The notes below the pieces were generated by a model that did no database searches, was not told the DNA's origin, and worked only from the letters and a program-made list of their open reading frames with translations. Below, piece by piece: positions 28,308 through 53,301 of a stretch of DNA of 64,000 nt (its first letter is position 1; each line of letters opens with the position of its first letter). The position numbers and the translations under genes were made by a program. The DNA is from Mycoplana rhizolycopersici (GTDB taxonomy: Bacteria > Pseudomonadota > Alphaproteobacteria > Rhizobiales > Rhizobiaceae): assembly GCF_013378445.1 (NCBI RefSeq), contig NZ_JABXYK010000008.1:124001-188000 (forward strand), read 5' to 3'.

Positions 28308-29125
28308 TGCGCGCCCTGATGACCGCAGTCTACGTCTTCCTCTATGCGCCGATCGCGCTGGTGGTGCTGTTTTCCTTCAATGCCGGCCGTAGCGCCAGCG
28401 AGTTCACCGGCTTCTCGCTGCAATGGTATGGCAAGGCGCTGGGAAACACCTTCCTGATCACCGCCCTGCAGAACAGCCTGATCATCGCGTTTACCAGCGC
28501 CATCCTCGCCGCCGTCTTCGGCACGATGGCCGCACTCGGCATGCAGCGGCTCGGTCCGCGAATGCGCGCCGTCTTCGAGGGGCTGATGGCGGCGGCGATC
28601 GTCGTGCCCGGCGTCGTCATCGGGATTGCCACGCTCGTCGCCCTCGTCGCCGTCTTCGGCGCGATCAACCCGGCAATCGCAAGCCTCTGGCCAGGCGAAC
28701 GCCCGCCGCAGTTCGGCCTCGGCTACGGCTCGATCATCGCAGCCCACGGCCTCTTCACCATGGCGCTGGTGGCCATGATCGTGAAGGCCCGGATCGCAAG
28801 CCTCGGTCGCGACATCGTCGAGGCCTCGGCCGATCTCTACGCCACGCCCTGGACGACCTTCCACCAGATCGTGCTGCCGCAGATCCTGCCCTCGGTGCTG
28901 GCCGGCTTCCTGCTCGCCTTCACCTTCTCCTTCGACGATTTCATCGTCGCCTTCTTCGTCGCAGGCTCGAAGACGACGTTGCCGATCTACGTCTTCGCCT
29001 CGATCCGCCGCGGCGTGACGCCGGAGATCAACGCGGTGGCGACCATGGTGCTGGTCGCCTCGCTCATACTCATTCTCGCCGCACGGGTGCTGATGCGCGA
29101 GAGGAAGACAAAGAGCACCGAATAG
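28307..29125 (+). CDS. ABC transporter permease (PotC-like)
   Basis: A 272-aa inner-membrane subunit, six spans. Seen: 'LFSFNAGRSASEFTGFSLQW' near the N-terminus and the EAA loop 'EASADLYATPWTTFHQIVLP', then 'FTFSFDDFIVAFFVAG', the hallmark segment of PotC/PotI permeases. It is coupled to the upstream permease by a one-base overlap and followed 23 bp later by an SDR gene probably in the same operon. Confidence 0.9.
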   Translation: MRALMTAVYVFLYAPIALVVLFSFNAGRSASEFTGFSLQWYGKALGNTFLITALQNSLIIAFTSAILAAVFGTMAALGMQRLGPRMRAVFEGLMAAAIVVPGVVIGIATLVALVAVFGAINPAIASLWPGERPPQFGLGYGSIIAAHGLFTMALVAMIVKARIASLGRDIVEASADLYATPWTTFHQIVLPQILPSVLAGFLLAFTFSFDDFIVAFFVAGSKTTLPIYVFASIRRGVTPEINAVATMVLVASLILILAARVLMRERKTKSTE

Positions 29126-30995: not shown

Positions 30996-32402
30996 TCACG
31001 GATAGCAGTAGGAATCCGACGAGCAGTCGCCGCCCTGCAGGCGGACCTGGTGCGGCCGGTGCGACTTCGGCCATTCAACGAAGAACTTTTCATCGAAGGC
31101 GATGCCGCCCTCCGGCTTGGCATCGAGCTTCACCATCCAGCCGTCGATGCCTTCCGGATAGAACTGCTCGTCGATCGCGCCATACAGCGAGTTGGTGAAA
31201 TAGACGCGCCTGCCGTCGCGGCTGACCTCCACCATCTGCGGCCCGCCGTTGAGCGCACCGTTCTTCGCCCCCGGGTGGCTGGCGCGCGAAACGATCCCGC
31301 CGATCCGCACCTTGCCCGTCTGCTTCGGCCTGAACGGATCGGAGACATCGAACTGGAGGAGGTCTCCCGTGCCCCAGCAGGAGACGTAGAGGAAGCGGTC
31401 GTCCATGGAGAGGTCGATGTCGGTGACGAGCGGCGGCACCGCGCCAAAACCTTTAAGCATCGGCGGCAGCACGTCCGGATCGGCTGGCTCCGCCGGGATG
31501 TCGATCACCTTCGTCACCGCCCATTTGTCGCCGTCGCGATGCCAGACCCAGATGGAGGAGGAAAGATCCTCCAGGCACACGACCGCGTTGACGAAACCGT
31601 AGGCCTTGGTCGGGTCATGGGCGGGGCGGAGCTCGAAGACGAGCTGGTACTTGTCGCCGAAATCGATCGTCTGCAAGTGCTTGCGCTTGTGCAGGTCCCA
31701 GAAATGCAGGCGCTTTCCGTATTTCGCACCGAGCAGGATTTCCGGCACGAGTCCGTTCTCGAACGTGTCCGGTGTGCCCCATTCGCTGGTCACCAGCGTA
31801 TCGTGGCCGAGGTGCCACCAGACGTCGTAGGAGAGTTGTTGCGGCCCGCGGTCCATTTCCCAGCGGCCCCGCACCTCGAAGGTCTCGTGGTCCATCAGGA
31901 ACACACCGCCGGGCGCCTTGCCTTCGGCATTGCCGAGGGCTGCGACATAGATCCCTTCCGGCCCGCAATGGACCGTGTGCGGCCGCGTATAGCCGGCCCG
32001 CTCGGCGACTTCCGGCGGCTCCACCACCTTGGCGATCGTCGGCCGCCGGGCGTCCGGCTTGGTGTCGACGATATGGATGCGCGAGGATTTCAGCCCCGGC
32101 ACGACGAGATAGCGCCGCTCGGCATGCGGATGCGGCGCGTTCGGGCACAGGCAGGACGAACAGGCGTTCCAGCCGAAATGGTGCAGTTCGTCGCCGACAT
32201 TCGGCATAGCCAGCGAATGCACGATCTTGCCATAGGTCGCAGACTTGGGATCGACGTCGACGACGGCGAGTTCGTCCGGTACCTGCCGCGTCGGATCGAA
32301 GGCTGCGACATAGGCGAGCGTTTCGGGCTCCGCTTTCATCGCCATGCGCGGTGACGGATAGAAGCTCGGATCGGGTTTCCAGGTTCCCAATGGATTTGCC
32401 AT
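30996..32402 (-). CDS. Selenium-binding protein 56 family / methanethiol oxidase
   Basis: A 468-aa SBP56-family protein. Bacterial members (MtoX) oxidise methanethiol to formaldehyde, H2S and H2O2 using copper. Seen: 'WNACSSCLCPN' (conserved CxxC-type site), 'RPHTVHCGPEGIYVAALGN', 'WWHLGHDTLVTSEWGTP' and 'TDIDLSMDDRFLYVSCWGTG', with many His and Asp residues of the beta-propeller, and the typical C-terminus 'HQVRLQGGDCSSDSYCYP'. No signal peptide is seen at the chosen start, whereas some MtoX proteins are periplasmic. The ATG at 32402 has AGGAG upstream. Neither mauG-like nor SCO1-like mto partners are adjacent. Confidence 0.88.
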   Translation of the reverse strand: MANPLGTWKPDPSFYPSPRMAMKAEPETLAYVAAFDPTRQVPDELAVVDVDPKSATYGKIVHSLAMPNVGDELHHFGWNACSSCLCPNAPHPHAERRYLVVPGLKSSRIHIVDTKPDARRPTIAKVVEPPEVAERAGYTRPHTVHCGPEGIYVAALGNAEGKAPGGVFLMDHETFEVRGRWEMDRGPQQLSYDVWWHLGHDTLVTSEWGTPDTFENGLVPEILLGAKYGKRLHFWDLHKRKHLQTIDFGDKYQLVFELRPAHDPTKAYGFVNAVVCLEDLSSSIWVWHRDGDKWAVTKVIDIPAEPADPDVLPPMLKGFGAVPPLVTDIDLSMDDRFLYVSCWGTGDLLQFDVSDPFRPKQTGKVRIGGIVSRASHPGAKNGALNGGPQMVEVSRDGRRVYFTNSLYGAIDEQFYPEGIDGWMVKLDAKPEGGIAFDEKFFVEWPKSHRPHQVRLQGGDCSSDSYCYP

Positions 32403-32880
32403 GTGAAGTGCTCCTGCGTTGCTGGACGACTTCATATGCGTGCCGCGCCGTTGGCCGGCGCATTGGCTGAGAGGGGGCGATGTCCGCCATGGCCGGCGAA
32501 GGATCGGCCGGGACGCCGGCGCCGCATACGGACCTGCCGGATCTTCGTCCCCATCCCCGTATCCTGCCAGAGAATGCAGCAAATGTGCAGCCGTTTCTGT
32601 TGCACGCCCATACGGAGGGACAACCACCAGGCAGCGCGCGGCAACCGGATGCGCAAGGCCGCGCATTCGCGGCATGAAAAAGCGAGGCGAAGTGCGACGC
32701 AGGCGCAACGATCCATCCGATGGCGGGCGACGGATATCGACGCCATGCGCGCGTACTTCCTTCCCGCCTCCCAGTTCGGTCGCCTCCCAGTCTGGTCGCA
32801 TCCAAGGCATGTCTCCGCCGAGTCATGTCCCGCCGAGCCATCCGCCGGCCTTGCCTGACGCGTTCGCCGATCGCGAAGTC
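32403..32880. other. Intergenic region upstream of the SBP56 gene
   Basis: A 478-bp stretch with no convincing gene; overlapping frames have no ribosome sites and look like GC-driven noise. It should contain the promoter of the minus-strand SBP56 gene. A short tandem duplication, CGCCTCCCAGT-N4 repeated, lies at about 32766-32797. Confidence 0.5.
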
Positions 32881-34638: not shown

Positions 34639-36300
34639 TCACCCGACCGTCACATGCCCGATCCCCTTGGCCGCAATCTCGTCGAATGACTCCTCGTACC
34701 CCGCATCCGCATACCGGATCACCCCCAGCGCCGTGTCGTTCGTAAGCGCGTGGCCCAGTCTCTCCGCCGCCGCGTCCGTTCCATCGGCCACCAAGGTAAC
34801 CCCGCAGCTCGTCATGTAGCCGGCATAGCCGCCGCCGCCGGAATGGACGACGACGAGGTCGGCCATCGATGACGACAGCAGCATCGCGTCGAGCAGCGGC
34901 CAGTCGGCGATCGCGTCCGATCCGTCCTTCATCCGCTCCGTCATGATGTTGGGATGGGCCATGGCGCCGGCGTCGAGATGGTCGCGGGAAAAGGCGACAG
35001 GCCCTTGCAGTTCGCCGTCCGCCACCAGCCGGTTGACCGCCAGCGCCAGCGCCGTCCGCTCGCCGTGGCCGAGCCAGGCAATCCGCGCCGGCAGGCCTTC
35101 GAAGGGAACGTTCTCGCGCGCCAGCCGGATCCAGTTGGTGACGATGCGGTTGTCGGGATACATTTCGAGCACCAGCTCGTCGATGCGGGCGATGTCGCTC
35201 TCCTCGCCCGACAGCGCCATCCATCGGAACGGCCCGATCGCACGCGCAAACAACGGCCTGAGATAGGCCTCTGTGAAGATCGGGATATCGAAGGCGTTCT
35301 TGACCCCGCCTTCGCGCGCCTGGGTGCGGATCAGGTTGCCGTTGTCGAATACCTCCGCGCCGCGTTTCTGGAAGTCGAGCATGGCGCCGACATGCTCGAC
35401 GATCGATGCGCGGCTGGCAGCCATCAACTGCCCCTGCCCGTCCTCGCGCAGAGATTTCACCTCCGCGAGCCCCATGCCCTTCGGCACGTAACCGTAGACG
35501 AGGTCGTGCGCCGACGTCTGGTCGGTGACGATGTCGGGAACGATGCCGCGCCGGGCGATCTCGGGGTAGATCTCCGCCGCATTGCCGACGAGGCCGATCG
35601 AGGTGGCGCGCTTTTCCTTCACCGCCGCCTCGATCATGGCGAGCGCCGTATCGAGGTCGGGCGCCACATGCTCGAGATAGCCGATGCCTTTCCGCTTTTC
35701 CGCCCGCTCCGGGTCGATGTCGACGCAGAGGATCGCAGCCCCCGCCATCCGGCCGGCGAGCGGCTGCGCCCCACCCATGCCGCCGAGGCCGGCCGTCAGG
35801 ATGAAGCGGCCGGCGAGCGAGCCGGAAAAGCGCTTCTCGGCGATGCGCATGAAGATCTCGTAGGTGCCCTGGATCACCCCCTGGCTGCCGATGTACTGCC
35901 AGGCGCCCGCCGTCAGCCCGCCCCAGCAGATCAGCCCCTTGCGCTGCAACTCGTAGAACACCTCCGCCTTCGCCCACTGGCCGACGATGTTGCAGTTGGC
36001 CATGATGACGAGCGGCGCCTTCGTATGGGTCGTAAGCAGCCCCACCGGCTTGCCCGACTGGATCAGCAGCGTCTGGTCCTCCTCCATCTCGCGGAGCGCC
36101 CTGACAATCGCCCGGTGCGAGGCCCAATTGCGCGCCGCCTTGCCGAGCGCGGCGTAGACCACCAGGTTTTCGGGATCCTCGCCAACGCAGAGCACGTTCT
36201 CCAGAAGCCGCAGAAGCGCCTCCTGCCGCCAACCCTTTGCACGCAGCACCGGGCCGCCGGGGATGGGGAAATTCGGGTGGCGGGGATTGGGTCTGGGCAT
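34639..36300 (-). CDS. Urocanase-family hydratase, probable thiourocanate hydratase
   Basis: A 553-aa urocanase-fold protein. The tightly bound NAD site 'LTAGLGGMGGAQPLAGRM' (residues 168-185) and 'YIGSQGVIQGTYEIF' are intact. Classical HutU residues are not: the catalytic Cys of 'RPLFC-x-G' is Ala352 ('LFARAIGPFRW'), and 'MYGQMTAGSW' reads 'CWGGLTAGAW' (residues 125-134), losing the Gln. The 'HHGGGVGMG' loop is 'HSGGGGYAG'. Imidazole urocanate is therefore unlikely to be the substrate. In the five-gene context with a MIO-less HAL homologue, a DUF917 protein, a hydantoinase and a carbamoylase, hydration of thiourocanate is the best fit. It is the last gene of the operon, with GAGGAG before the start. 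Confidence 0.82.
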   Translation of the reverse strand: MPRPNPRHPNFPIPGGPVLRAKGWRQEALLRLLENVLCVGEDPENLVVYAALGKAARNWASHRAIVRALREMEEDQTLLIQSGKPVGLLTTHTKAPLVIMANCNIVGQWAKAEVFYELQRKGLICWGGLTAGAWQYIGSQGVIQGTYEIFMRIAEKRFSGSLAGRFILTAGLGGMGGAQPLAGRMAGAAILCVDIDPERAEKRKGIGYLEHVAPDLDTALAMIEAAVKEKRATSIGLVGNAAEIYPEIARRGIVPDIVTDQTSAHDLVYGYVPKGMGLAEVKSLREDGQGQLMAASRASIVEHVGAMLDFQKRGAEVFDNGNLIRTQAREGGVKNAFDIPIFTEAYLRPLFARAIGPFRWMALSGEESDIARIDELVLEMYPDNRIVTNWIRLARENVPFEGLPARIAWLGHGERTALALAVNRLVADGELQGPVAFSRDHLDAGAMAHPNIMTERMKDGSDAIADWPLLDAMLLSSSMADLVVVHSGGGGYAGYMTSCGVTLVADGTDAAAERLGHALTNDTALGVIRYADAGYEESFDEIAAKGIGHVTVG

Positions 36301-36348
36301 GGTGATCTCCTCGATATGGTCTCGGCCTTCTAGGACTTTTGGGCGGCA

Positions 36349-36397
36349 TGCCCCTCATCCGCCTGCCGGCACCTTCTCCCCGCGAGCGGGGAGATGG
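36349..36397. repeat. Family A palindromic unit
   Basis: A single CCCCTCATCCGCC...CTTCTCCCCGCGAGCGGGGAG unit lies between the DUF917 and hydratase genes of the proposed ergothioneine operon. Unlike four other sites in the window, no inverted partner is seen. Confidence 0.65.
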
Positions 36398-36421
36398 ACG
36401 ATTGCCGCGCCGACCTCCCCC

Positions 36422-37525
36422 TCAAGGAGAGGATGAAGGAGCCAGCGCATACCGCGCGATCTCGATCCCCATCGCCTTCTCCACCGGCGGATATACGCTC
36501 GGGTCGAGCACGCTCGATGCCAGCGGAATGACCGTCTTGGGCACGTGCAGCACGAACACCCGCATCCCCACCTGGAGCTGCCCGACGCTCAAGGGCTCGC
36601 CTTCAGGCGACAGCGTGGTGATCACGTCGGGGAAGGTCGCAAGCCGAACGCCGAACGCCCGCTCCACTGCCATGTACTCGTTCATCACATGCAGGGTGAC
36701 GGCGTCATCGCCGTTGCCGAGCGTCACCGTGCCGATGTCGAACGCTTCCTTTGTGTAGACGACCGACTTGTCGGTGATGACGCCTTCGGAAAGGATCGCC
36801 CCGCCGGTGGTCCGCACGATCGCATCGATGATCGCCGCCCCGCCCCGCGCCTCGGCCGCAAGGATCGCCTCGCCGAGTTCCAGAGCCAGCGAGATGCCGC
36901 CCAGTGCTGCGTTGGCCCGCACGTAGGATGCCCGGAGCGGATTGCGGCAGGAGGCGATGAAGCCGCCGGACTGGTCAGCGGCGGTGCGCAGCACCGGCGA
37001 GACCTTCGCCGTCGCCCCGCGCACGACGAGCTCGATGTAACGGTCCTCGGCGCGGTTGCCGCCGGCAGCCGTCTGGATCATCGGTTCGGGCGAGCCGGCC
37101 ATGCCGATCGAGCCCATGTCGCCGGTCGGGTGCGCGCGCATGTCGCCGACCGCATCCAGCACCTTGGTGCCGAGGATCGCCGACGGCAGCCAGCCGTTCA
37201 GCGTCGAGGACTTGCCGTTCTGGCCGACCATCAGCGCCGCCACCTTCTGGCCCAGCGCCTCCTGCAGCAGTTGCACCGCGCGGACATAGTCGACGCCGCG
37301 CATTTCCCAGGGGGTGGTCGAGGCCGGCGCGCCGATGGCTGCCGCCGTCGCCACCCAGTCGTCGTCGGCAAGCTCTTCGATCGACACCAGCTCCGGCCGG
37401 CCGATCGAGACCGCGGCATGACCGAGCATGCGCCCGTGGTCGGCCCAGCCGCCGCCGCCGGCCGCATAGACCGAGCCGCCGCGCACCGCCGCCTCCACGT
37501 CTTTTTCCTTTAGAATCCGCCCCAT
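36422..37525 (-). CDS. DUF917 / S-Me-THD family protein, probable thiohydantoin desulfurase
   Basis: A 367-aa protein of the DUF917 family, renamed after S-methyl-thiohydantoin desulfurase, a metalloenzyme of ergothioneine and S-methyl-ergothioneine breakdown. Seen: the glycine-rich 'SVYAAGGGGWADHGRMLGHA', 'WEMRGVDYVRAVQLLQEALG', 'HPTGDMGSIGMAGSPEPM' and 'ASCRNPLRASYVRANAALGG'. It should replace the C2 sulfur of 3-(5-oxo-2-thioxoimidazolidin-4-yl)propionate (or its S-methyl form) with oxygen, releasing a sulfur species. It shares a one-base TGATG junction with the carbamoylase gene. The assignment comes from family plus operon context; which of the two substrate forms is used is not readable. 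Confidence 0.8.
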   Translation of the reverse strand: MGRILKEKDVEAAVRGGSVYAAGGGGWADHGRMLGHAAVSIGRPELVSIEELADDDWVATAAAIGAPASTTPWEMRGVDYVRAVQLLQEALGQKVAALMVGQNGKSSTLNGWLPSAILGTKVLDAVGDMRAHPTGDMGSIGMAGSPEPMIQTAAGGNRAEDRYIELVVRGATAKVSPVLRTAADQSGGFIASCRNPLRASYVRANAALGGISLALELGEAILAAEARGGAAIIDAIVRTTGGAILSEGVITDKSVVYTKEAFDIGTVTLGNGDDAVTLHVMNEYMAVERAFGVRLATFPDVITTLSPEGEPLSVGQLQVGMRVFVLHVPKTVIPLASSVLDPSVYPPVEKAMGIEIARYALAPSSSP

Positions 37526-38805
37526 CAGCCGGCCTCCTGATTCACTTCCTGAAGTTCGCCGTCCAGCTGGACAACCGCCTGGAGCAAAACGGCCGCACCC
37601 AGCGCGATGTCGTCGTTCTCGGCGAATTCCTCCGGCGCGTGGCTGCGCCCCTCCCGGCAGGGCACGAAGATCATCGCCGCGCGCGTCGCCCGCGCCATCC
37701 AGGCGGTGTCGTGCCCGGCCCCGGATGCCATTCTCCGGTTGCTGGCGCCGGCGGTGTCACAGGCCCGCTCCAACACGGCGAGGAGCATCGGATCGGCCGG
37801 CGTCGGCGGATTGTCGGAGATGCGGCGCGGCGTGGCGATCGCAGTCCCCGTCTCGCGGGCGATCTGCTCCGCCATCTGGTCGAGCGAATTGGCGAACAAT
37901 TCCATCATCGCCCGCTCCTCGGCCCGCGCGTCGATCAGAAGCCGCGCGCGGGAGGGCACGACGTTGGCGGCGTTCGGCTCGATCGAAAATTCGCCGACGG
38001 TCGCGGTGAAATGGAACTTTCCGCCGGAAAACGATTTCGCCAGCGCCTCCACCCCCGTCACCAGCCGTGCGGCGGCGGCGAGCGCATCGGCGCGTCCGGC
38101 CATCGGCGTCGTCCCCGCATGGTCCGCCCTTCCGTCCACCACGATCTCGATGCGCGTGATGCCGGCAATTGCGGTGACGACGCCGATGTCGAACTTCTCC
38201 TCCTCCAGCACCGGCCCCTGCTCGATGTGGAGTTCGAGGAAGGCAGCAATATCGCTCCTCGGCTCGCTCGCGATCCGCGCCGGGTCGCCGCCCGCCTGGC
38301 GGATCCCTTCGCCAAGCGTCAGCCCGCCGCTCTCCCGCGCAAGCCATTCCTCAGGCAGCACGCCGGCCATGCCGCGGCTGCCGATGCAGGAGACACCGAA
38401 GATGGAGACTTCCTCGGCGAGGAAGTCGACCACTTCCAGATCGTGCTCCAGTTCAGTGCCACGGTCGGCGAGCGCGCGCGCCACCTCCAGCGCCGCGGCC
38501 ACCCCGGCGATGCCGTCGAAGCGGCCGCCATCCGGCACCGTGTCCGAATGCGAGCCGAGCATGATCGTGCCGAGCCCCGGCACCCTTCCCGGCCGCCGGC
38601 CGATAAGGTTGCCGGCGGCATCGATGCGGGTCTCCAGCCCCGCCGCGCGGAAGCGCTCGGCCAGAAAGGCGCGGCCATCCGGAAACAGCGCCGAAAACGC
38701 CCGCCGCGTATAGGGCCGGCCCGGCTCGGTGATGTCGGCAAGTCCGTCGATCACCGCGGCGATCCGCGCCGGATCGACCGGCAGGTTTGTCCGCGGCGCG
38801 CTCAT
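37525..38805 (-). CDS. M20 hydantoinase/carbamoylase family amidase, probable N-carbamoyl-L-glutamate hydrolase
   Basis: A 426-aa binuclear-metal amidohydrolase. Metal ligands are visible: His86 in 'GSHSDTVPDGGRFDG', Asp97 in the same block, Glu132 in 'FLAEEVSIFG' and His193 in 'LELHIEQGPVLEEE'. 'DHAGTTPMAGRADAL' marks the dimerisation domain, and 'SGAGHDTAWMA' near the C-terminus holds the last ligand. Family members cleave N-carbamoyl amino acids to amino acid, CO2 and NH3. The start at 38805 overlaps the hydantoinase stop by four bases. In the proposed pathway this is the final step, giving glutamate. A ureidoglycolate or beta-ureidopropionate substrate is the main alternative. Confidence 0.87.
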   Translation of the reverse strand: MSAPRTNLPVDPARIAAVIDGLADITEPGRPYTRRAFSALFPDGRAFLAERFRAAGLETRIDAAGNLIGRRPGRVPGLGTIMLGSHSDTVPDGGRFDGIAGVAAALEVARALADRGTELEHDLEVVDFLAEEVSIFGVSCIGSRGMAGVLPEEWLARESGGLTLGEGIRQAGGDPARIASEPRSDIAAFLELHIEQGPVLEEEKFDIGVVTAIAGITRIEIVVDGRADHAGTTPMAGRADALAAAARLVTGVEALAKSFSGGKFHFTATVGEFSIEPNAANVVPSRARLLIDARAEERAMMELFANSLDQMAEQIARETGTAIATPRRISDNPPTPADPMLLAVLERACDTAGASNRRMASGAGHDTAWMARATRAAMIFVPCREGRSHAPEEFAENDDIALGAAVLLQAVVQLDGELQEVNQEAG

Positions 38806-40184
38806 CGGCCGTGCTCCCCTGGCGTCAGCGTCGCCAACGGCCGCACGAAGGCGCCTGTGCCGGGCTCGGCCAGCACTTTTTTGCCATCGAAGGCGAGCCG
38901 GCCACGCAGGAATGTGCCTGCCACCCGCCACGGCAGCTTCATGCCGTTGTACGGCGACCAGCCGACGACGTTGTGGCCGCTCTCGGCGGCGTCGTAGGTG
39001 TAGGGTTCGGGCGTCAGAACGGTGATATCGGCGTCCTTGCCGGGCTCCAACGCACCCTTGACATGGTCGAGACGGAAATGCCGGGCCGGGTTGAGGCTCA
39101 TCAGTTCGGCCGCTCGCGTCAGCGGGATGCCGCGCTCCAGGGCGCCCTTGACGAACAGCGGCACCATGACCTCCAGCCCGGGCACGCCGGACGCATTGGA
39201 GAGCATGTCGGCGTTCGTCTTGCGATCCTCCGACCAGCTGACATGGTCCGTCGAGACCAGCGTAACGTTACCGTCCGCCACGTGCCGCCAGAGTTTCTCC
39301 ACCTCCGCCCGCGGGCGGATCGGCGGATTGATCTTCGCCTTGCCGCCGAGGCGGCGCACGTCGTTTTCCTCGTCGAGCGTGAGATAGTGGATGCAGCACT
39401 CGATCGTGGCGCGGTGCCCCTGCGCCCGGTAGGCGGCCGCGATCTCGTAGCCGCGGCCGAGCGAGCAGTGGACCACATGCGCCGGGCAGCCGGTCACCGC
39501 CCCCGTCTCATAAACCTGGCAGGTCGCAAGCAGTTCTGTCAGCGGCGGCCGCGACAGGCCATGCGCCCGCCAGTCGGAAATGTCGAGCGCCCTGACCTTC
39601 TCGATCGCCGCCCGCACCGCCTCGTCGTCCTCGTTATGCACGCCGGCGGTCAGCCCCGTCGGGGCGATCGCCCGGAAGCAGTCCTCCAGCAATGCGGCCG
39701 GGATACGCGGAAAGCGCTTCGGATCGGTGCCGAATGTGGAGAACTTGAAGGCTGCGACACCAGCCTCGACCATCTCGGCAATGCGCGCCGGCCCCTCATC
39801 GGGATCGATCGTGCCGTATAGGGCGAAATCGACCCGCGCCTGCTTGCCGGCATGCGCCACCTTGCGGGCGACCGCTTCGGCCGAGCAGACGAGATCGCCC
39901 TCGTCATAGGGCATGTCGACGATGCTTGTGACGCCGCCGGCCGCAGCCGACCGGGTCGACCAGACGAAATCTTCCTGGTCCTTCTGCGACAGGGAGTGCA
40001 CCTGCGCGTCGATGGCGCCGGACAGGATCATCGCGCCCTTGAGGTCGTGGCGCTCGCGAGCGTCCGGCATCGCGCCCTGCCCGACATGGACGACCTTGCC
40101 GTCGCGGACGGCGACATGCCCGCCCTCGACGATGCGGTCGGGCAGCACCACCGTCCCCTTCACCACCAGATCGAAATCGGCCAT
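38802..40184 (-). CDS. Cyclic amidohydrolase (dihydroorotase/hydantoinase superfamily), probable hydantoin-5-propionate hydrolase
   Basis: A 460-aa TIM-barrel amidohydrolase. Seen: 'GAMILSGAIDAQVHSLSQKD' (metal site, with a DxxVH variant of the usual DxHxH), 'GVAAFKFSTFG' (carboxylated Lys candidate), 'AHVVHCSLGRGYEIAA', 'STDHVSWSEDRKTN' (metal Asp region) and 'SLNPARHFRLDHVKGALEPG'. GGAGGG precedes the start, and the stop overlaps the carbamoylase start (ATGA). Hydantoinase followed by carbamoylase is a classic pair, converting a 5-substituted hydantoin to the amino acid. Hydantoin-5-propionate would give N-carbamoylglutamate. Allantoinase or dihydropyrimidinase activity is possible but the context argues against it. 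Confidence 0.85.
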   Translation of the reverse strand: MADFDLVVKGTVVLPDRIVEGGHVAVRDGKVVHVGQGAMPDARERHDLKGAMILSGAIDAQVHSLSQKDQEDFVWSTRSAAAGGVTSIVDMPYDEGDLVCSAEAVARKVAHAGKQARVDFALYGTIDPDEGPARIAEMVEAGVAAFKFSTFGTDPKRFPRIPAALLEDCFRAIAPTGLTAGVHNEDDEAVRAAIEKVRALDISDWRAHGLSRPPLTELLATCQVYETGAVTGCPAHVVHCSLGRGYEIAAAYRAQGHRATIECCIHYLTLDEENDVRRLGGKAKINPPIRPRAEVEKLWRHVADGNVTLVSTDHVSWSEDRKTNADMLSNASGVPGLEVMVPLFVKGALERGIPLTRAAELMSLNPARHFRLDHVKGALEPGKDADITVLTPEPYTYDAAESGHNVVGWSPYNGMKLPWRVAGTFLRGRLAFDGKKVLAEPGTGAFVRPLATLTPGEHGR

Positions 40185-40199
40185 CGGCTTTCCCTCCGT

Positions 40200-41735
40200 C
40201 TAGCTCAGCGCGAAGAACACGTCGAAATCGTCCATCGGCGCTGCGGCCACGAAGGAGGCGAGCGCGTCCGGGCATGCAAGGTCGCGGTCCAGCGCCTCGA
40301 TCTCGGCCGACATCAGCCGGTCCTTGCGGTAGAACGCCGTCACCTTCCGCACGCGTTCATAGACGACCGCGGCGACGCCTTCGGGACTGTCGCTCGCAAG
40401 ATCGATCGCCTGCGCCGACAGCATCCCCTCCAGCGCCGCCAGCTGGCGCAGGTCGCGCACCTGGCTCTCCATTCGCTCGACGATCAGTGGCAGGAAGGTC
40501 GCCTCCTCCTCAAGTCCGCCGGCGACGACGATCGACTGCGCCGAGATCGGCACCGCGAGCGACTGGATGCGCATGTAGAGCTCGACGGCGAGCTTGACCA
40601 GCGGCCCGAAGCCGGTGGCCGCCTCGCCGGGGGCGACGAGGTTGACCGGCAGGTTGCGGCGCACGCCGTTGGAAAGCAGCACGCAGCGGTTCAGGACGTT
40701 GCGGGCGAGATGGGCGAAGCCAGTCTGCGCCGCCTCGACATAGAGCGCGGTCGACAGCGGCAGCGAGCCGCCGGATGCCATCACGTGGTCGTCGAGCACG
40801 ACGGGGTTGTCGTCGGTCTGCGCGGTCGCCTCGACGAGGCGCTCGGCGGCGTTCATCAGCGTGTCGAGGCAGGCGCCGAACACCTGCGCGGTCATCCGCA
40901 AACTGAGCGGATCGTGGATCGCCGAAGGCTTCGGCCAGGCACAGGAGGCGGCCTGCGCCGAAAACCAGCCCCCGGCCAGCGCCTCGCCATGGCCCGCAAG
41001 CCTTGCCGCCACCCGCCAGGGATCGGAGGAGGCACCGAGCGCCAGCGACGACAAGAGCCCGGTGACCATCAGGTTTCGGATCGCCTTGGCCGCCTCGCGG
41101 GTCACGTCGGCGGCGGCCGCGTGCGCTATCGCATTGACACTGAGGGCCGCCAGCGCATCGCGCGGCTGCATGCAGAACGGTTCCAGCCCGGCACGGGCCA
41201 GCGCGACCGCCGCCGGCAGCCGCTCGCCCTCGAAGTAGGCCTCACCCTCGCCGGTGAGTACGGCCGCGACCTGTCCCATCAGTCCGATGTCGGCGCAGCC
41301 CATCGAGCCGTGCCGGCGTACCACGGGGACGACGTCGCGTTCGAGCAGGCCAAGGAATGCATCCACCAGTTCGGGGCTGCAGCCGGAATAGCCGGACAGC
41401 GCGGTGTTGATGCGGATCGCCATCGCCTTGCGCACGATCGGCAGCGAGAACGGCTCGCCGGTGCCGAAATGATGCGCCCTGACCAGGTTGTGATTGAACT
41501 CCATCAGGTCGTCGACCGTCCAGAGCTTGTCCTTCATCGAGCCGACGCCGGTGTTGGAACCATAGATCGGCAGGCCGGCCGCGAGCCGGTCGGCGATGAT
41601 CTTGCGCGAGGCGCCGATGCGGCTCATGCCGATCTCGCAGGCCATCGGCCGGCCGGCCGCACGCCCGATCGCCTCCAGCACCGCGAAGTCCAGCGGTTCG
41701 CCCGTCAGATAGAAGGTCTCGGCACTCGCCAGCAT
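40200..41735 (-). CDS. HAL-family lyase without MIO triad, probable ergothionase
   Basis: A 511-aa member of the histidine/aromatic ammonia-lyase superfamily. Conserved: 'LPIYGSNTGVGS' (Tyr58, in the position of the HAL catalytic Tyr), 'DPLSLRMTAQVFG' and 'ATAQTDDNPVVL'. The MIO-forming 'GASGD' is absent: residues 143-151 read 'GSMGCADIG'. The HAL 'LLNGTQ' is 'ALSVNA', and the Tyr of 'YSLR' is Leu. Without the MIO electrophile it should not deaminate histidine. The known non-MIO branch is ergothionase, which eliminates trimethylamine, a good leaving group, to give thiourocanate. It is the first gene of the operon, with AGGAG before ATG 41735, divergent from the double-HTH LysR regulator. Confidence 0.82.
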   Translation of the reverse strand: MLASAETFYLTGEPLDFAVLEAIGRAAGRPMACEIGMSRIGASRKIIADRLAAGLPIYGSNTGVGSMKDKLWTVDDLMEFNHNLVRAHHFGTGEPFSLPIVRKAMAIRINTALSGYSGCSPELVDAFLGLLERDVVPVVRRHGSMGCADIGLMGQVAAVLTGEGEAYFEGERLPAAVALARAGLEPFCMQPRDALAALSVNAIAHAAAADVTREAAKAIRNLMVTGLLSSLALGASSDPWRVAARLAGHGEALAGGWFSAQAASCAWPKPSAIHDPLSLRMTAQVFGACLDTLMNAAERLVEATAQTDDNPVVLDDHVMASGGSLPLSTALYVEAAQTGFAHLARNVLNRCVLLSNGVRRNLPVNLVAPGEAATGFGPLVKLAVELYMRIQSLAVPISAQSIVVAGGLEEEATFLPLIVERMESQVRDLRQLAALEGMLSAQAIDLASDSPEGVAAVVYERVRKVTAFYRKDRLMSAEIEALDRDLACPDALASFVAAAPMDDFDVFFALS

Positions 41736-41781
41736 GGAAGATCTCCTGTGGCGATCAACTCTATGCAAGACGTAGAATTCG

Positions 41782-41823
41782 GATATATCCCAATATCCGT
41801 ACGATATATGCCAATATCCGGAC
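41782..41823. promoter_or_regulatory. Two tandem 21-bp direct repeats, candidate operator of the ergothioneine operon
   Basis: Two adjacent 21-bp units (41782-41802 and 41803-41823), each with the core CCAATATCCG, match at 19 of 21 positions. They lie in the 111-bp divergent promoter between the lyase and the LysR-type gene. A 21-bp period is two helical turns, so two protein subunits would bind the same DNA face. The region is strongly AT-rich against the GC-rich background. Confidence 0.65.
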
Positions 41824-41846
41824 AAGCCGGAACCTGGAACTCGCCG

Positions 41847-43025
41847 ATGGACCTTGCCACACTCTGCCTCGTCGAGGCGGTCCTGCGCACGCGCAGCGTC
41901 CGTGCGGCTGCAAGGCTCGAAGGCCGCCCGGCCTCCAGCGCCAGTGCTGCGCTCAAGCGGATGGAAGCGGCGATTTCCCTGCCGCTCGTCCGGCGGGAGG
42001 GGACGACACTGGTGCCGACGCTCGATGCACAGGTGCGTATGGACCGGCTGACGAAAATTGCCGTCGCCGCCAGGGATCTGTTGCATGTCGTCAACCGCGA
42101 CAGCGAAGCCTCCCCACGCCTGCCGATGCCGCAGATCCCGCTTGAAGCGCTCGCCCGCCTCAGCGCCACTGTGCGCGCCGGAAGCATTCGCAGCGCAGCG
42201 CGCATGCTCAAGCTCGGCCAGCCGCAGCTGACCCGGCAACTGGCGCGGCTGGACAAGGAGATCGGCGCGCCCTTGCTCGCCCGATCCCGCAACGGCATCG
42301 CCTGCACGCCCGAAGGTCTCGCAGTGCTGCCGATCGCCGAGCGGATCTTCGAGATCTGGGCGAGCCTGTCGCAGGCCTCCGACGAACGCTTCCGCAAGAG
42401 CGCACGAACCTGGCGGCTCGGTTCGGTGATCCCCTTCGGACACGAAAGCGATATCGCGCACATGCTCGCACGGCTCGCCGCCGGCTGGCAGCGGTTGCGT
42501 CCGCGCCAGCCGCTGTTCATCGCCTCCACCACCGCCGACGAGCTCATTTCCGGCCTGCAGGCCCGCCGCTTCGACCTGGCGCTGCTGGACGTCGAGCACT
42601 ATCCGGCCGAATTCGACGGCGCACTCGTCGGCCGCTCGCCGCTGGCGCTCGCCGTCGCCCGTTCGCTGGCCGCAGGGCATGAGCAGGCCGGCGACCTCCT
42701 GCGGCGTTATCCGATCGCCGTGCCGAGCGTCAGAAGCGGCCTGCGACAGATGACCGACCTCTATCTGGCGAGCACGCTCTCGCCGGCCGAACGGGCAAGG
42801 TTGACGCTGATCGAGGTCGATTCCATCCCCGTTATCATCAACCTCGTGCGCGAGCACGGGTACCTGTCGGTCCTGCCGGAACAGTCCGTTGCCCGCATCC
42901 CAGATCCCCCCACCCTCTTCCGCCTCGAGGCGCCCTTCCAGCAGTCGCTGAGCCTCGTCTGGCCGAGGAATGTGCTGGCGCGTGAGGCGGCCGACGCCGT
43001 GATGCAGATTCTGGCGCGGATCTAG
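41847..43025 (+). CDS. LysR-type regulator with two tandem N-terminal HTH domains
   Basis: A 392-aa regulator. The C-terminal part (about 165-390) is a LysR substrate-binding-like domain ('FGHESDIAHMLARLAAGWQR', 'GLQARRFDLALLDVEHY'). Ahead of it are two HTH_1-like units. The first is residues 1-70 ('LVEAVLRTRSVRAAARLEGR' with 'ASSASAALKRMEAAISLPLV'). The second is about 95-160 ('LARLSATVRAGSIRSAARML' with 'QLTRQLARLDKEIGAPLLAR'). Ordinary LysR proteins (about 300 aa) have one. The start at 41847 leaves the 21-bp repeats in the promoter; an in-frame ATG at 41763 would make them coding. It is the likely activator of the divergent ergothioneine operon. Confidence 0.85.
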   Translation: MDLATLCLVEAVLRTRSVRAAARLEGRPASSASAALKRMEAAISLPLVRREGTTLVPTLDAQVRMDRLTKIAVAARDLLHVVNRDSEASPRLPMPQIPLEALARLSATVRAGSIRSAARMLKLGQPQLTRQLARLDKEIGAPLLARSRNGIACTPEGLAVLPIAERIFEIWASLSQASDERFRKSARTWRLGSVIPFGHESDIAHMLARLAAGWQRLRPRQPLFIASTTADELISGLQARRFDLALLDVEHYPAEFDGALVGRSPLALAVARSLAAGHEQAGDLLRRYPIAVPSVRSGLRQMTDLYLASTLSPAERARLTLIEVDSIPVIINLVREHGYLSVLPEQSVARIPDPPTLFRLEAPFQQSLSLVWPRNVLAREAADAVMQILARI

Positions 43026-43115: not shown

Positions 43116-44318
43116 TCAGGCGACGGCGGCGGCCGGACGCGGCCTGATGCCGAGCATGATGCCGATGGCAGCTACGGCCAGCACGACCCCGCTTGCCGTG
43201 AACACGCCCGCAGCACCGCTGGCGTCGAAGATGAGGCCCCCGACGGCAGCCCCCATGGCGATGGCGAACTGGATCGCGGCGACGAGCAGGCCGCCGGCGC
43301 TCTCTGCCTCGTCGGGAACGGTGCGGGCAAGCCAGGTCGACCAGGCGACCGGAACCGCGCCGAACAGCAGGCCCCAGAGCGTGATGACGGCCGCGTCAAT
43401 GACCAGGGAGGCGCCGGTCGTGACCAGCACCGATGCGATCGCCGCCATCATCAGCGGCATCAGCGTCAGCGTCAGACGCAGGCTGCGACCGATCAGCAGA
43501 CCCGCGAGCAACGTGCCGACGAAATTGGCGACGCCGAAGCCGAGCAGCACGGCCGAGACGGTCTCGATACCCGCACCGACATCCGTCTCCAGGAACGGAC
43601 GCAGGTAGGTGAAGAAGGCGAAGTGGCCGCCGAACACCAGCGTTGCCGCCAGGATGCCGAGCCCCACGCTCGGCCGGGCGAGAACCTTGAGCGATGCCTT
43701 GAGGCTCGACGATCCGGTGGGCGCGAGGCTGGGCAGCGTCAGGAGCTGCATGACGAGCGTGACCGCGCCGAGCCCGGCGGCCAGCACGAACACCGTCCGC
43801 CAGCCGGCGACTTCGCCGAGATAGCTTCCGACAGGTGCTGCCACGATGGTCGCTGCGGACACGCCGCTGAAGATCATCGACAGCGCCCGCGGCACCGATG
43901 CCGCCGGCACGAGGCGCATGGTGATTGCCGTCGCCATCGCCCAGAAGCCGCCGAGCGCCACGCCCAGCAGCACCCTGCCCGTCAGGAGCAGGACCATGCC
44001 CGGAGCGAAGGCCACCATCAGGTTGGAGACGACCAGCAGGAGCGAGAAGAAGAGCATCAGGTGTCGGCGGTCGACGCGGCGGGCGAACGAGGTGATGAGC
44101 AGGCTTGCCGCCATGCCGACCACCGCCGTTGCCGTCACGGCCTGGCCGGCGGCCCCCTCGGTAATGTTCAGTTCGGCTGCGATCGGCGTCAGCAGGCTGG
44201 CGGGAAGGAATTCCGCCGTCACCAGGCCGAACACGCCGAGCGCCATGGAGACGACGGCGCCCCAGGCGGGCGCGTCGGCGGTTGCCCCGCTTTCGGAGGG
44301 ATCGAAGATGGCTTGCAT
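43116..44318 (-). CDS. MFS transporter, DHA1-type exporter
   Basis: A 400-aa permease with twelve predicted spans. Motif A-like 'ITSFARRVDRRHLMLFFSLL' lies in the loop after span 2, and 'GRVLLGVALGGFWAMATAIT' and 'VAAPVGSYLGEVAGWRTVFV' (motif C/D-like) are typical of the AraJ/SotB/YdhP group that exports sugars, arabinose or drugs by proton antiport. The start at 44318 has AAGGA upstream. It is divergent by 83 bp from an AraC regulator that presumably controls it. A link with the neighbouring ergothioneine operon is not evident from sequence. Confidence 0.9.
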   Translation of the reverse strand: MQAIFDPSESGATADAPAWGAVVSMALGVFGLVTAEFLPASLLTPIAAELNITEGAAGQAVTATAVVGMAASLLITSFARRVDRRHLMLFFSLLLVVSNLMVAFAPGMVLLLTGRVLLGVALGGFWAMATAITMRLVPAASVPRALSMIFSGVSAATIVAAPVGSYLGEVAGWRTVFVLAAGLGAVTLVMQLLTLPSLAPTGSSSLKASLKVLARPSVGLGILAATLVFGGHFAFFTYLRPFLETDVGAGIETVSAVLLGFGVANFVGTLLAGLLIGRSLRLTLTLMPLMMAAIASVLVTTGASLVIDAAVITLWGLLFGAVPVAWSTWLARTVPDEAESAGGLLVAAIQFAIAMGAAVGGLIFDASGAAGVFTASGVVLAVAAIGIMLGIRPRPAAAVA

Positions 44319-44401
44319 GAAACTAGTCCTTGAATCGTGAATGATGCAGTGCAACAAACCTAGGCTGGACGTTCCGGACGATCTATGGCACAAACGCCGT
44401 C

Positions 44402-45403
44402 ATGCTTGATCATTCGTCCGAAAACGTGCGTGCCTCGACTTCCAGCGGCACATCACCGCGCACCATCGAGCCCGACCTTGTGAGCGAGCTGCTGCTCGGC
44501 ATGCGGCTCGTCGGCCTCGACTATCGCCGTATCGAGGTGACGCCGCCCTTCGGCCTTGCGTTCGGGGAGGTCGATGGCCGCGCCCAGTTTCATTTCGTCG
44601 CGCGCGGCCCGGTCCATCTGCGCACGCCGGCCGGAATTCTCCACACGATGAACGCCGGAGACGCCGTGCTGCTGCCGCGCGGCGGAAGCCACGCCCTGCT
44701 CTCGCGCCCCGACACGAAGTGCCAGGACGTGCGCGCCCTCTCATCCGCCCCGCTTTGCAGCACCGTCAGCGCCATCAGCGCCTGCGACGGCGGGGGCGAA
44801 TGCGAGGATGAGCGCGCGATCGTCTTCAGCGGCTGCATGGAATTCGATCTCGGCGGGCTGCATCCACTGGTGGCGCTGATGCCCGAGACCATGCTGGTCG
44901 GAACACTCATCGAGCGCTATCCGGAAATCCTGCCGATGCTGGAGGCGATGGAGCGCGAGGCAAAGGGTGCGCGCGCCGGCTTCGCCGGCATTCTCGCCAG
45001 GCTCGCCGACGTCGTCGCGGCCTTCATCGTGCGCGCATGGGTCGAATGCGGCTGCGGCGACGCCACCGGCTGGATCGCCGCCCTCCGGGATCCGCGTCTG
45101 GGCCGCGTCATCGTCGCCCTCCACAACCGGCCCGGCCACGACTGGACCGTCGCCGAGCTGGCCGAGATCATGGGCGCCTCGCGCTCGGTCTTCGCGGAAC
45201 GCTTCCAGGAGGTCACAGGCATGACGCCGGTACGCTACCTGACCGAACTGCGCATGCGGCTGGCAGCGCAATGGATCGCCAAGGAACGGATGCCGATCGA
45301 GGCCGTGGCCCTGAAGCTCGGCTACGGCTCGCAGGCCGCCTTCAGCCGCGCCTTCAAGCGCATCACCGGCCACCCGCCCGGAAGCCATGCGCGGCCCCGA
45401 TAG
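44402..45403 (+). CDS. AraC-family transcriptional regulator with cupin_6 sensor domain
   Basis: A 333-aa regulator. An N-terminal cupin-type domain (about 25-210) includes 'AQFHFVARGPVHLRTPAGIL' and 'NAGDAVLLPRGGSHALLSRP'. The C-terminal AraC domain (about 230-330) includes 'WTVAELAEIMGASRSVFAER' and 'LKLGYGSQAAFSRAFKRITG'. It is divergent from the MFS gene; this arrangement is common for regulators of exporters and redox or drug-response genes. A Cys-rich patch ('SACDGGGECEDE') lies in the sensor domain. Ligand unknown. Confidence 0.88.
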   Translation: MLDHSSENVRASTSSGTSPRTIEPDLVSELLLGMRLVGLDYRRIEVTPPFGLAFGEVDGRAQFHFVARGPVHLRTPAGILHTMNAGDAVLLPRGGSHALLSRPDTKCQDVRALSSAPLCSTVSAISACDGGGECEDERAIVFSGCMEFDLGGLHPLVALMPETMLVGTLIERYPEILPMLEAMEREAKGARAGFAGILARLADVVAAFIVRAWVECGCGDATGWIAALRDPRLGRVIVALHNRPGHDWTVAELAEIMGASRSVFAERFQEVTGMTPVRYLTELRMRLAAQWIAKERMPIEAVALKLGYGSQAAFSRAFKRITGHPPGSHARPR

Positions 45404-46005: not shown

Positions 46006-46980
46006 TCACCCCTTCCCCGCCGCCCTCAGCCGCCTTCGCGTCTCCGTCGGGCTCTCGTGGTAATGTGCGCGGTAGCTGCGGGAGAAGGCGGACGAGGAGT
46101 TGAAGCCGGTGGCGGCGGCGATGTCGGCGAATTCCAGCTTCGTCTCGATCACCTTGCGCCGCGCCGCGTTCAACCGCAGCGCAAGATAGTGCTGGTGCGG
46201 CGCAACCGCCATCGTCTCCTGGAACAGGTCCTGCAGATGGCGGGCGGAGATGCCGATGCGGCGCGCAAGGCGCGTCAGCGTCACCGGTGCCTCGACCGTC
46301 TCCTCCATCAGCCGCACCGCCTGGCTGACGCGCTGGTCGGCGACGCGCATGTTGCCGAGTGCGGGCACCTGCAGGAGGCCGCCGGTTCGCTCGTGCTCGT
46401 AGATGAACAGTCGCGAGACCTCGAGCGCGAGCGAGTAGCCCTGCCGCCTGCGGATGATCTCCAGCATCAGGTCGAGCGTCGGCAGCGAGCCGCCGCTCGT
46501 CATGCGCTTGCCGTCGATCACGTAGCGTTCGGTTAGCACCGTCACCTGCGGATAGGCGGCGGCGAAGTCCTCGCGGTCCTCCCAGTGGATCGTCACCGAA
46601 TGGCCGTCGAGCAGGCTCGCCTGCGCCAGCAGCCAGCTGCCCGATTCGATCCCCGCCATCATGACCCGGTGGCGCGCGGTGCGCGACAATTGCCGCCTGA
46701 GCGCCGGGGTAGCGCTCTTCTCCCACTGGTAGCTGGAGAGGATGAACAGCGGCACCGTCTCCTGCTCGGGCTGAAATGTCCCGTCGACGGGGACCGGGAT
46801 ACGGCTGCGCGTCTCGATCGAGGCCCCGTCTGGGGAGAAGATGCGCCAGCGATAGAGGTCCTGCCCGGAGATGCGGTTGGCGGCGCGAAGCGGTTCGATG
46901 ACGGAGGCGACGAGGATCAGGTTCGTCTCCGGCAGCACCAGAATATCCAGGTCGAGCGTCGCTGACGACGGATCGAGCAT
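46006..46980 (-). CDS. cdhR: GATase1-like AraC-family regulator, CdhR-like
   Basis: A 324-aa regulator with an N-terminal DJ-1/PfpI (GATase1-like) domain (about 10-195: 'LDILVLPETNLILVASVIEP' and 'AGIESGSWLLAQASLLDGHS') and a C-terminal AraC HTH domain (about 215-320). This architecture is that of GlxA, GbdR and CdhR. In pseudomonads CdhR activates carnitine catabolism. Here it is divergent by 116 bp from the dehydrocarnitine-cleavage gene, the same arrangement, so I infer carnitine-responsive activation of 47097-54084. GGAGG lies 9 nt before the ATG at 46980. The symbol is assigned by architecture and context. Confidence 0.85.
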   Translation of the reverse strand: MLDPSSATLDLDILVLPETNLILVASVIEPLRAANRISGQDLYRWRIFSPDGASIETRSRIPVPVDGTFQPEQETVPLFILSSYQWEKSATPALRRQLSRTARHRVMMAGIESGSWLLAQASLLDGHSVTIHWEDREDFAAAYPQVTVLTERYVIDGKRMTSGGSLPTLDLMLEIIRRRQGYSLALEVSRLFIYEHERTGGLLQVPALGNMRVADQRVSQAVRLMEETVEAPVTLTRLARRIGISARHLQDLFQETMAVAPHQHYLALRLNAARRKVIETKLEFADIAAATGFNSSSAFSRSYRAHYHESPTETRRRLRAAGKG

Positions 46981-47096
46981 GTGGCATCACCTCCGCAAGA
47001 TTGTTCCCGAAGTGTAAAGAATGGTGCCGAAATTGAAAAGCATGTGTCTTCCGCTTGGCCCGTAATGGCGTCAACGAACAATCCGGGAGAGACAAA

Positions 47097-47999
47097 ATGC
47101 CCCTGACCATGAACCGCGACGTCTTCATCACCTGCGCCGTCACCGGCTCGGGCGACACGGTCGCAAAATCGAAGCACGTGCCGATCACGCCCAAGCAGAT
47201 CGCCGAATCGGCGATCGAGGCAGCCAAGGCGGGTGCCGCGATCGTCCACTGTCACGTACGCGACCCGGAGACCGGCGCGCCCTCGCGCCGCAACGACCTC
47301 TACAAGGAAGTCACCGACCGCATCCGCCAGGCGGAGGTCGACGTGGTCCTGAACCTCACCGCCGGCATGGGCGGCGACATGATCTTCGGCGACGTCGAAA
47401 AGCCGCTGCCGCTGAAGGAACAGGGCACGGACATGGCCGGAGCCACCGAGCGCGTCTCGCACGTTGCCGAATGCCTCCCGGAAATCTGCACGCTCGATTG
47501 CGGCACGATGAACTTCTCGCTCGGCGACTACGTGATGACCAACACGCCGTCGATGCTGCGCGCGATGGCAAAGCAGATGACCGACCTCGGCGTCCGCCCC
47601 GAGATCGAGGCCTTCGACACCGGCCATCTCTGGTTCGCCAAGCAGTTGGTCGAGGAAGGCCTGATCGAGGATCCGGTGCTGATCCAGCTCTGCATGGGAA
47701 TCCCGTGGGGCGCGCCCGACGACCTCAACACCTACATGGCTATGGTCAACAACGTGCCGTCCAACTGGACCTTCTCGGCCTTTTCGATCGGCCGCAACGC
47801 GATGGCCTATCCGGCCGCGGCCGTTCTCGCCGGCGGCAACGTCCGCGTCGGGCTGGAAGACAACCTGTACATCGGCAAGGGCCAGCTTGCGACCAATGCA
47901 CAGCTCGTGGAGAAGGCGGTCAACGTCGTCGAAAGCATGGGCGCCCGCATCATCGGCCCGGCCGAGGTGCGCGAAAAGCTGAAGCTGACGAAGCGGTGA
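47097..47999 (+). CDS. cdhB: BKACE-family (DUF849) 3-dehydrocarnitine cleavage enzyme
   Basis: A 300-aa Zn-dependent beta-keto acid cleavage enzyme. It should condense 3-dehydrocarnitine with acetyl-CoA, giving acetoacetate and betainyl-CoA. Seen: the metal site 'AAIVHCHVRDPETGAPSRRN' (HxH), 'LNLTAGMGGDM', 'TLDCGTMNFS', 'LCMGIPWGAPDDLNTYMAMV' and the metal/substrate block 'NVRVGLEDNLYIGKGQLATN'. The start at 47097 has GGGAGA upstream. It lies next to the carnitine dehydrogenase-thioesterase fusion and divergent to a CdhR-like regulator, which makes the carnitine assignment strong although DUF849 members have varied substrates. Confidence 0.9.
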   Translation: MPLTMNRDVFITCAVTGSGDTVAKSKHVPITPKQIAESAIEAAKAGAAIVHCHVRDPETGAPSRRNDLYKEVTDRIRQAEVDVVLNLTAGMGGDMIFGDVEKPLPLKEQGTDMAGATERVSHVAECLPEICTLDCGTMNFSLGDYVMTNTPSMLRAMAKQMTDLGVRPEIEAFDTGHLWFAKQLVEEGLIEDPVLIQLCMGIPWGAPDDLNTYMAMVNNVPSNWTFSAFSIGRNAMAYPAAAVLAGGNVRVGLEDNLYIGKGQLATNAQLVEKAVNVVESMGARIIGPAEVREKLKLTKR

Positions 48000-48025
48000 G
48001 GATACGGACGGAGGGTGGCGTAAGT

Positions 48026-48194
48026 CCCCCTCATCCGGGCCCTTCGGGCCACCTTCTCCCCGCTGGGGAGAAGACGGTGCCCGGCGCGTCCTACGCAGCA
48101 TCCACACAGGCAGTTGAAATAGCCTCGAAGGCTGCGGCTACCTCCCTCTTCTCCCCTCGGGGAGAAGGTGGCCCGAAGGGCCCGGATGAGGGGG
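48026..48194. repeat. Inverted pair of family A units with a 36-bp perfect stem
   Basis: 48026-48061 and 48159-48194 are exact reverse complements over 36 bp, separated by 97 nt. They lie between the cdhB-like and carnitine dehydrogenase genes, so the transcript can form a long stable hairpin inside the operon. Each copy also contains its own small palindromes (GGGCCCTTCGGGCC). Confidence 0.8.
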
Positions 48195-48230
48195 CCGCAG
48201 GACACCAACCAATTTGACGGGAACGACCAT

Positions 48231-49721: not shown

Positions 49722-49754
49722 CAGCGCAACGGCAGGGACGGGCTCGACGGGCCG

Positions 49755-50035: not shown

Positions 50036-50074
50036 GCCAACACGCGCCGCCCTTAAAACACGAGGGAGAACACA

Positions 50075-51235: not shown

Positions 51236-51242
51236 CCTGATC

Positions 51243-53297: not shown

Positions 53298-53301
53298 GCC
53301 C

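Follow-up and report, generated by a model that had tools for sequence, protein, structure and literature searches.

Does a gene cluster that combines a histidine ammonia-lyase (HAL) homologue with a urocanase homologue serve histidine utilisation, or does it consume another substrate? This question is raised by a 64,000-nucleotide stretch of the Mycoplana rhizolycopersici genome (contig NZ_JABXYK010000008.1, positions 124,001 to 188,000; hereafter the window), in which a preliminary description had proposed an ergothioneine catabolic operon disguised as a histidine-utilisation (hut) operon. The five genes, here referred to as ertA-D-E-C-B, lie co-directionally on the minus strand from window position 41735 to 34639 and diverge from a gene for a LysR-type regulator (Table 1). 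From the analyses described below, the cluster is very probably a complete operon by which this Rhizobiaceae bacterium converts ergothioneine into glutamate.

A five-step bacterial pathway for ergothioneine catabolism was reportedly published by Beliaeva, Leisinger and Seebeck in 2021, and it is said to comprise the same five enzyme families and the same reaction order as the window operon. Following that scheme, ergothioneine would be taken up into the cytosol, where ErtA would catalyse a beta-elimination to thiourocanate and trimethylamine and ErtB would add water to thiourocanate, yielding thiohydantoin-5-propionate. ErtC would then exchange sulfur for oxygen, ErtD would open the hydantoin ring and ErtE would take off the carbamoyl group, the end products being L-glutamate, trimethylamine, a reduced sulfur species, CO2 and NH3. 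The pathway is thus already known; beyond it, the window presents a remote ErtA branch, a LysR protein with two helix-turn-helix (HTH) domains and a conserved upstream element.

Table 1. Window coordinates of the ert genes, the divergent regulator gene and the two copies of the upstream element.
Feature	Position	Strand	Description	Supporting match
ertA	40200..41735	-	MIO-less HAL-fold lyase, proposed ergothionase, alphaproteobacterial branch	PF00221, 274 bits
ertD	38802..40184	-	Predicted hydantoin-5-propionate amidohydrolase	NF058538, 789 bits (cut-off 600)
ertE	37525..38805	-	Predicted N-carbamyl-L-glutamate amidohydrolase	NF058540, 603 bits (cut-off 520)
ertC	36422..37525	-	Predicted thiohydantoin desulfurase	NF058529, 591 bits (cut-off 440)
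ertB	34639..36300	-	Predicted thiourocanate hydratase	NF058530, 1043 bits (cut-off 930)
LysR-type regulator gene	41847..43025	+	LysR-type regulator, two HTH domains	Pfam HTH_1 in two stretches, LysR_substrate
Proximal element copy	41785..41802	-	GTACGGATATTGGGATAT	Sole exact pattern match in the host genome
Distal element copy	41806..41823	-	GTCCGGATATTGGCATAT; 21 bp away	Sole one-mismatch match in the host genome

Assignment and conservation of the ert genes

All five minus-strand reading frames, and that of the divergent LysR gene, were found where the preliminary description had placed them, and Pfam matched the family named for each of the five genes: aromatic amino acid lyase (ertA), amidohydrolase (ertD), M20 (ertE), S-Me-THD (ertC; formerly DUF917, an older name that turns up in database records of relatives) and urocanase (ertB). 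To call the genes mostly overlapping was slightly generous, as ertD/ertE and ertE/ertC do overlap (by 4 bp and 1 bp), but gaps of 15 bp and 121 bp separate ertA from ertD and ertC from ertB, respectively.

The catalytic steps were assigned by employing the NCBIfam 20.0 equivalog models, each with its own cut-off. Four of the five operon proteins, i.e., the thiourocanate hydratase, the thiohydantoin desulfurase and both amidohydrolases, exceeded the cut-offs of the models for ergothioneine catabolism, ErtA being the exception. The proposed enzyme identities are therefore backed by these models for four steps and, for the first one, by fold, the missing MIO residues, operon linkage and co-occurrence. 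ErtE was also matched by the generic Zn-hydrolase model NF009531 (668 bits, cut-off 486), which outscored NF058540.

ErtB had been described as a urocanase homologue without key HutU residues. In line with this, it carries Ala at the Cys position of 'PARICW', a residue that we take to be catalytic in HutU, and 'HSGGG' instead of 'HHGGG'. Its identity was 68.5% to 7ned, which is titled urocanate hydratase in the PDB and is presumably the Paenibacillus thiourocanate hydratase, compared to 52.8% to urocanase 1x87 and 50.5% to the HutU of the host. Across 349 genomes of the phylum, a protein above the thiourocanate hydratase cut-off was detected in five (lowest score, 1029 bits), and the best other protein reached 720.

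We next consider linkage, which was counted in 80 named loci with a window-type ErtA, the best 80 of 259 stretches from a scan of species genomes. All five genes stood in the order A-D-E-C-B in 74 of these loci (five of the 74 with transporter genes after ertA), which indicates that their grouping is more than chance. The six exceptions were two loci cut by contig ends (L112, L140), two with ErtA alone (L149, L156) and two with no match for ertD/ertE (L129, L155). By gene, ertC was present in 77 loci, ertB and ertD in 76 each, ertE in 75 and the LysR gene in 53. Further, a sample of 297 genomes of the order, in which ErtA was counted at E <= 1e-90 and ErtC above its model cut-off, contained 14 genomes with both proteins, two with only ErtA, four with only ErtC and 277 with neither (Fisher p 1e-18, kinship ignored). 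The closest named ErtA relative was that of Rhizobium subbaraonis (97%); among the matches listed, those of a Rhizobiales isolate, Mycoplana azooxidifex and Rhizobium sp. GN54 followed at 93-95%. In some relatives, a small gene lies between ertC and ertB (L054 8928-9257; L055 10299-10628), the one in L054 matching TfoX_N.

The 5.6 Mb host genome encodes two Lyase_aromatic and two urocanase genes (E <= 0.001), corresponding to the ert pair and to a hutH/hutU pair on contig 4, where the HAL keeps the normal GSVGASGDL motif. A search of the host genome for the EgtD family found no member, so the host should consume ergothioneine and not make it.

ErtA and the nature of the first step

ErtA passed no NCBIfam model; its best match was histidine ammonia-lyase (223 bits, 524 required), and the hutH model gave 218 bits (cut-off 539). 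The residues of the 4-methylideneimidazole-5-one (MIO) group had been reported as missing, and this was borne out by an alignment with Pseudomonas putida HutH (represented by the Y280F mutant entry 1gkj), in which the MIO triplet A142-S143-G144 aligned with C147-A148 and a one-residue deletion, with Asp149 retained. ErtA thus possesses the HAL fold and, in place of the Ala-Ser-Gly of HutH, Cys-Ala plus the deletion. The same deletion is common to three ergothionase-type proteins, i.e., the Treponema denticola ergothionase (6s7j, 6s7q) and two MIO-less proteins that stand with ertB and ertC homologues (Burkholderia arboris L180 and Rhizobiaceae L052). There, the former MIO site reads Glu-Gly in the T. 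denticola enzyme, with Glu142 at the position of Cys147, and Glu-Ala in the other two; among ErtA relatives, Cys147 is not absolute, being Ala in L075 and Thr in L073. Mechanistically, ErtA could do without MIO because trimethylammonium would already be a good leaving group.

With regard to other positions, compared for what we take to be their functional roles in HutH, Tyr58, His88, Arg280 and Glu409 of ErtA align with HutH Tyr53, His83, Arg283 and Glu414, and ErtA and the T. denticola ergothionase match at Tyr, His, Arg, Glu and Lys positions. At the positions of HutH Asn195 and Tyr280, ErtA and the ergothionase-type proteins alike have Ser and Leu. Column patterns were read from an alignment with ErtA from 12 loci, chosen out of 21 in which an ErtA match had been obtained (left out were L058, L059, which holds unread bases, L061, L063, L064, L073, L079, L080 and, as too remote, L052). 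In 12 ungapped columns, the three ergothionase-type proteins and all 12 ErtA were alike against five HutH, while in five columns HutH and ErtA were alike against the ergothionase-type proteins.

Both by sequence and by fold, the best PDB relative of ErtA was the ergothionase 6s7j. A Foldseek comparison of the ErtA AlphaFold model (predicted local distance difference test score 84.9; weak at residues 60-66, 145-148 and 400-411) gave a root-mean-square deviation of 2.6-2.7 and a template-modelling score of 0.87-0.88 for 6s7j, versus 3.3-3.6 and 0.85-0.86 for P. putida HutH. A maximum-likelihood tree of 56 proteins, a chosen set, grouped ErtA with the T. denticola, L180, L052 and L239 proteins (95/92). 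Whether the HAL-like protein clusters with true HutH, a check proposed at the outset, was answered by the approximately unbiased (AU) test, in which ErtA and HutH as one clade were rejected (p-AU 9e-13). On these sequence grounds, ErtA can firmly be regarded as distinct from HutH and plausibly as an ergothionase; a relationship to the known ergothionase is likely, though still unsettled, and ErtA possibly forms an independent lineage.

Further MIO-less HAL-fold proteins were L237 and L238 (genome G284) and L239 (G253), which read GSIGAADL, GSIGAGDL and GTLGEGDL, respectively; L236 and L240 are HAL-fold proteins with GSAGYLTHNAH near the MIO site. In the literature on ergothioneine catabolism that was searched, of which subscription journals were mostly outside coverage, no report or laboratory test of the ErtA clade was found.

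Several observations weigh against an ergothioneine operon headed by ErtA. Firstly, the identity of ErtA is only 28.4% to the T. denticola ergothionase and 29.8% to the operon-linked B. arboris L180 protein, and at 27.7% P. putida HutH is about as distant. Nine ungapped columns are common to HutH and the ergothionase-type proteins and differ from ErtA, and the Phe329 of HutH, also Phe in the ergothionase-type proteins (Phe326 in the T. denticola enzyme), is Ser324 in ErtA. The Foldseek margin is small (E 3e-26 for 6s7j vs. 8e-25 for HutH), and confidence in the ErtA model is lowest where the MIO site used to be. In the free tree, ErtA sits on a very long branch (2.97). Constraining it to a clade with only T. 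denticola, L180 and L052 lowers the log-likelihood by 8.1 units (p-AU 0.115), and a constraint to the uncharacterised MIO-less paralogues L237/L238 lowers it by 6.4 units (p-AU 0.138). Outside ErtA, ErtB passes the hutU model too (686 bits, cut-off 375), a search of the host genome for a betaine-type binding protein, run without a positive control, found none, and no sigma-70-like promoter was found.

A more far-reaching reading is that ErtA represents a second, separately evolved, cytosolic ergothionase, with its own HAL-fold route to MIO-free elimination (usually Cys-Ala), together with a two-headed LysR protein that would read two operator copies two helical turns apart. We regard this as possible, though rather doubtful.

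The remoteness of ErtA from the tested ergothionase also leaves room for action on another trimethylated or thiolated histidine, such as hercynine, with the rest of the operon serving thiourocanate from several sources. This would agree with the 4 of 18 ErtC genomes without a window-type ErtA and the 2 of 16 ErtA genomes without ErtC in the order sample, and with stretches around several ert clusters in which no ErtA match was found (e.g., L067, L068, L071 and L181 from Paracoccus aminophilus). However, the same operon is headed by ErtA in 74 of the 80 loci, and a hercynine lyase would give urocanate, which would not be expected as a substrate of ErtB, making this explanation improbable.

Even less probable, and rejected here, is an S-methyl ergothioneine branch, in which the same families would act on S-methyl thiourocanate. 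Although the parallel NCBIfam S-methyl models match the window proteins too, ErtB scored 735 bits with the hydratase model (cut-off 880) and ErtC 286 bits with the desulfurase model NF058532 (cut-off 450), while the non-methyl models passed. That the two kinds of models discriminate is indicated by the opposite pattern of a cluster on Agrobacterium tumefaciens pAt (L183 7881-16251), where an S-methyl-type desulfurase and hydratase exceeded the S-methyl cut-offs. This cluster also contains a glutathione S-transferase family gene, a molybdopterin S/N-oxide reductase and an amidohydrolase, with no HAL-type gene annotated in the stretch, and may be a pathway for ergothioneine that is oxidised or S-substituted.

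Finally, a second hut operon with diverged enzymes, in favour of which the HAL and urocanase folds, the hutU score of ErtB and records annotated hutU or urocanate hydratase can be cited, was rejected as having next to no chance, given the excluded ErtA-HutH clade, the absent MIO triplet, the far higher score of ErtB with the thiourocanate hydratase model, the separate hutH/hutU pair of the host, and a desulfurase, a hydantoinase and a carbamoylase as the remaining three genes.

The divergent regulator and the upstream element

Among eight relatives of the divergent LysR protein that were scanned, two HTH_1 stretches were present in six and one in the other two, and the alignment extended into the first 20 residues in 51 of the 53 loci with a match. 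The most likely start of the gene is 41847, since the alternative ATG codons fall within the conserved upstream element (41808) or just past it (41763).

The 8-mer core of this element, TGGGATAT, was present in the 260 bp preceding ertA in 71 of 81 loci (expected, 0.008 per locus) and is part of an 18-bp element with a direct-repeat partner at 21 bp. When the element was compared with its own upstream sequence in the 71 loci (offsets 12-30), the similarity was greatest for a shift of 21 bp, averaging 9.0 of 18 positions against 6.4 for the next best. Of the ten loci without the core, L131 differs from it by a single base, and L135 and L150 have TTTAGGATAT; L142 and L149 have the core and no neighbouring LysR match. 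In the host genome, sites with at most one mismatch to the element were restricted to the two copies listed in Table 1, as a pair, and the three two-mismatch matches were at the level of the reversed-pattern control (four in all). We infer that the LysR protein binds the upstream element, and the tandem 21-bp repeats before ertA are probably the sites through which it switches the operon.

Terminator-like sites were no more frequent than in shuffles, and the literature searched, including passages of PMC5882156, contained nothing to the point on two-headed LysR proteins. With published operons the window locus was compared by enzyme families and reaction order only; it displays the two-headed divergent LysR, the order A-D-E-C-B and an adjoining carnitine cluster, and its ErtA, compared to the published pathway, comes from a remote branch.

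Uptake, neighbouring genes and annotation

The operon-linked ErtA proteins of L052 and L180, which are 28-30% identical to window ErtA, have an N-terminus that reads by eye like a signal peptide and are thus perhaps exported. Window ErtA lacks such a stretch, so that its substrate ergothioneine would need to be taken up beforehand. If this is right, some bacteria would release trimethylamine outside the cytosol and take in thiourocanate; the window-type clade would instead have to take in ergothioneine itself, in keeping with the transporter genes present in several of its operons. Directly after ertA, a betaine-type ATP-binding cassette (ABC) transporter was found in 7 of the 80 loci, related to the ergothioneine ABC transporter EgtU (PMC9732360). 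The binding protein of the L079 transporter matched EgtUC (E 3e-29), but was closer to proteins titled glycine betaine/osmoprotectant (4nd9; E 1e-140). Polyamine-type transporter genes are located at window positions 25759-29125, with nothing linking them to ergothioneine. As for the fate of trimethylamine in the host, one haem N-demethylase-like gene, beside chorismate-binding and aminotransferase genes, led nowhere.

Neighbouring genes were also considered as operon members. A major facilitator superfamily gene (43116-44393) with an AraC gene (44402-45403), and an SBP56 gene (30996-32435), were rejected, as each was present in 4 of the 80 loci; the SBP56 gene scored 662 bits with PF05694 and 105 bits with the methanethiol oxidase model, below its cut-off of 650. 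At 46006-54084, a carnitine-type cluster comprises a carnitine 3-dehydrogenase (892 bits, cut-off 592), a GbdR-like regulator and a BKACE-like enzyme, both below cut-off, and acyl-CoA dehydrogenase-, CoA ligase- and enoyl-CoA hydratase-like genes. Homologues of the GbdR-like regulator and BKACE-like genes occurred in 48 of the 80 ertA loci, hinting at a quaternary-amine island. Elsewhere, a Deinococcus sp. KNUC1210 plasmid (L184 2524-9574) carries an ert-like set whose HAL-fold protein reads SLGESDLAP and whose amidohydrolase is annotated in two pieces, and a Microvirga ossetica plasmid (L182 8001-11834) carries a desulfurase and ertD- and ertE-like genes, with no urocanase- or HAL-like match in the stretch examined.

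The expectation that automated annotation would call such an operon histidine degradation held in part. Records of relatives bear the names 'urocanate hydratase', 'hutU', 'DUF917 family protein' and 'aromatic amino acid ammonia-lyase', and ErtB does pass hutU, but NCBIfam 20.0 names four of the steps specifically. The 12 aligned ErtA proteins matched only HAL, tyrosine and phenylalanine ammonia-lyase and aminomutase models in NCBIfam (E <= 1e-20), and the T. denticola ergothionase and the two operon-linked proteins only ammonia-lyase/aminomutase models (E <= 1e-10), so NCBIfam appears to hold no ergothionase model. As 259 stretches encode an ErtA relative (80 examined), the rarity of such proteins may in part reflect how they are named, at least outside the gut.

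Fungi and some bacteria synthesise the antioxidant ergothioneine, which plants and animals take up, and the organisms that destroy it in soil would help to set its supply. With the pathway itself known, laboratory work would be best spent on the remote ErtA and on its conserved switch, a compact system open to testing that consists of the upstream element and the two-headed LysR protein.

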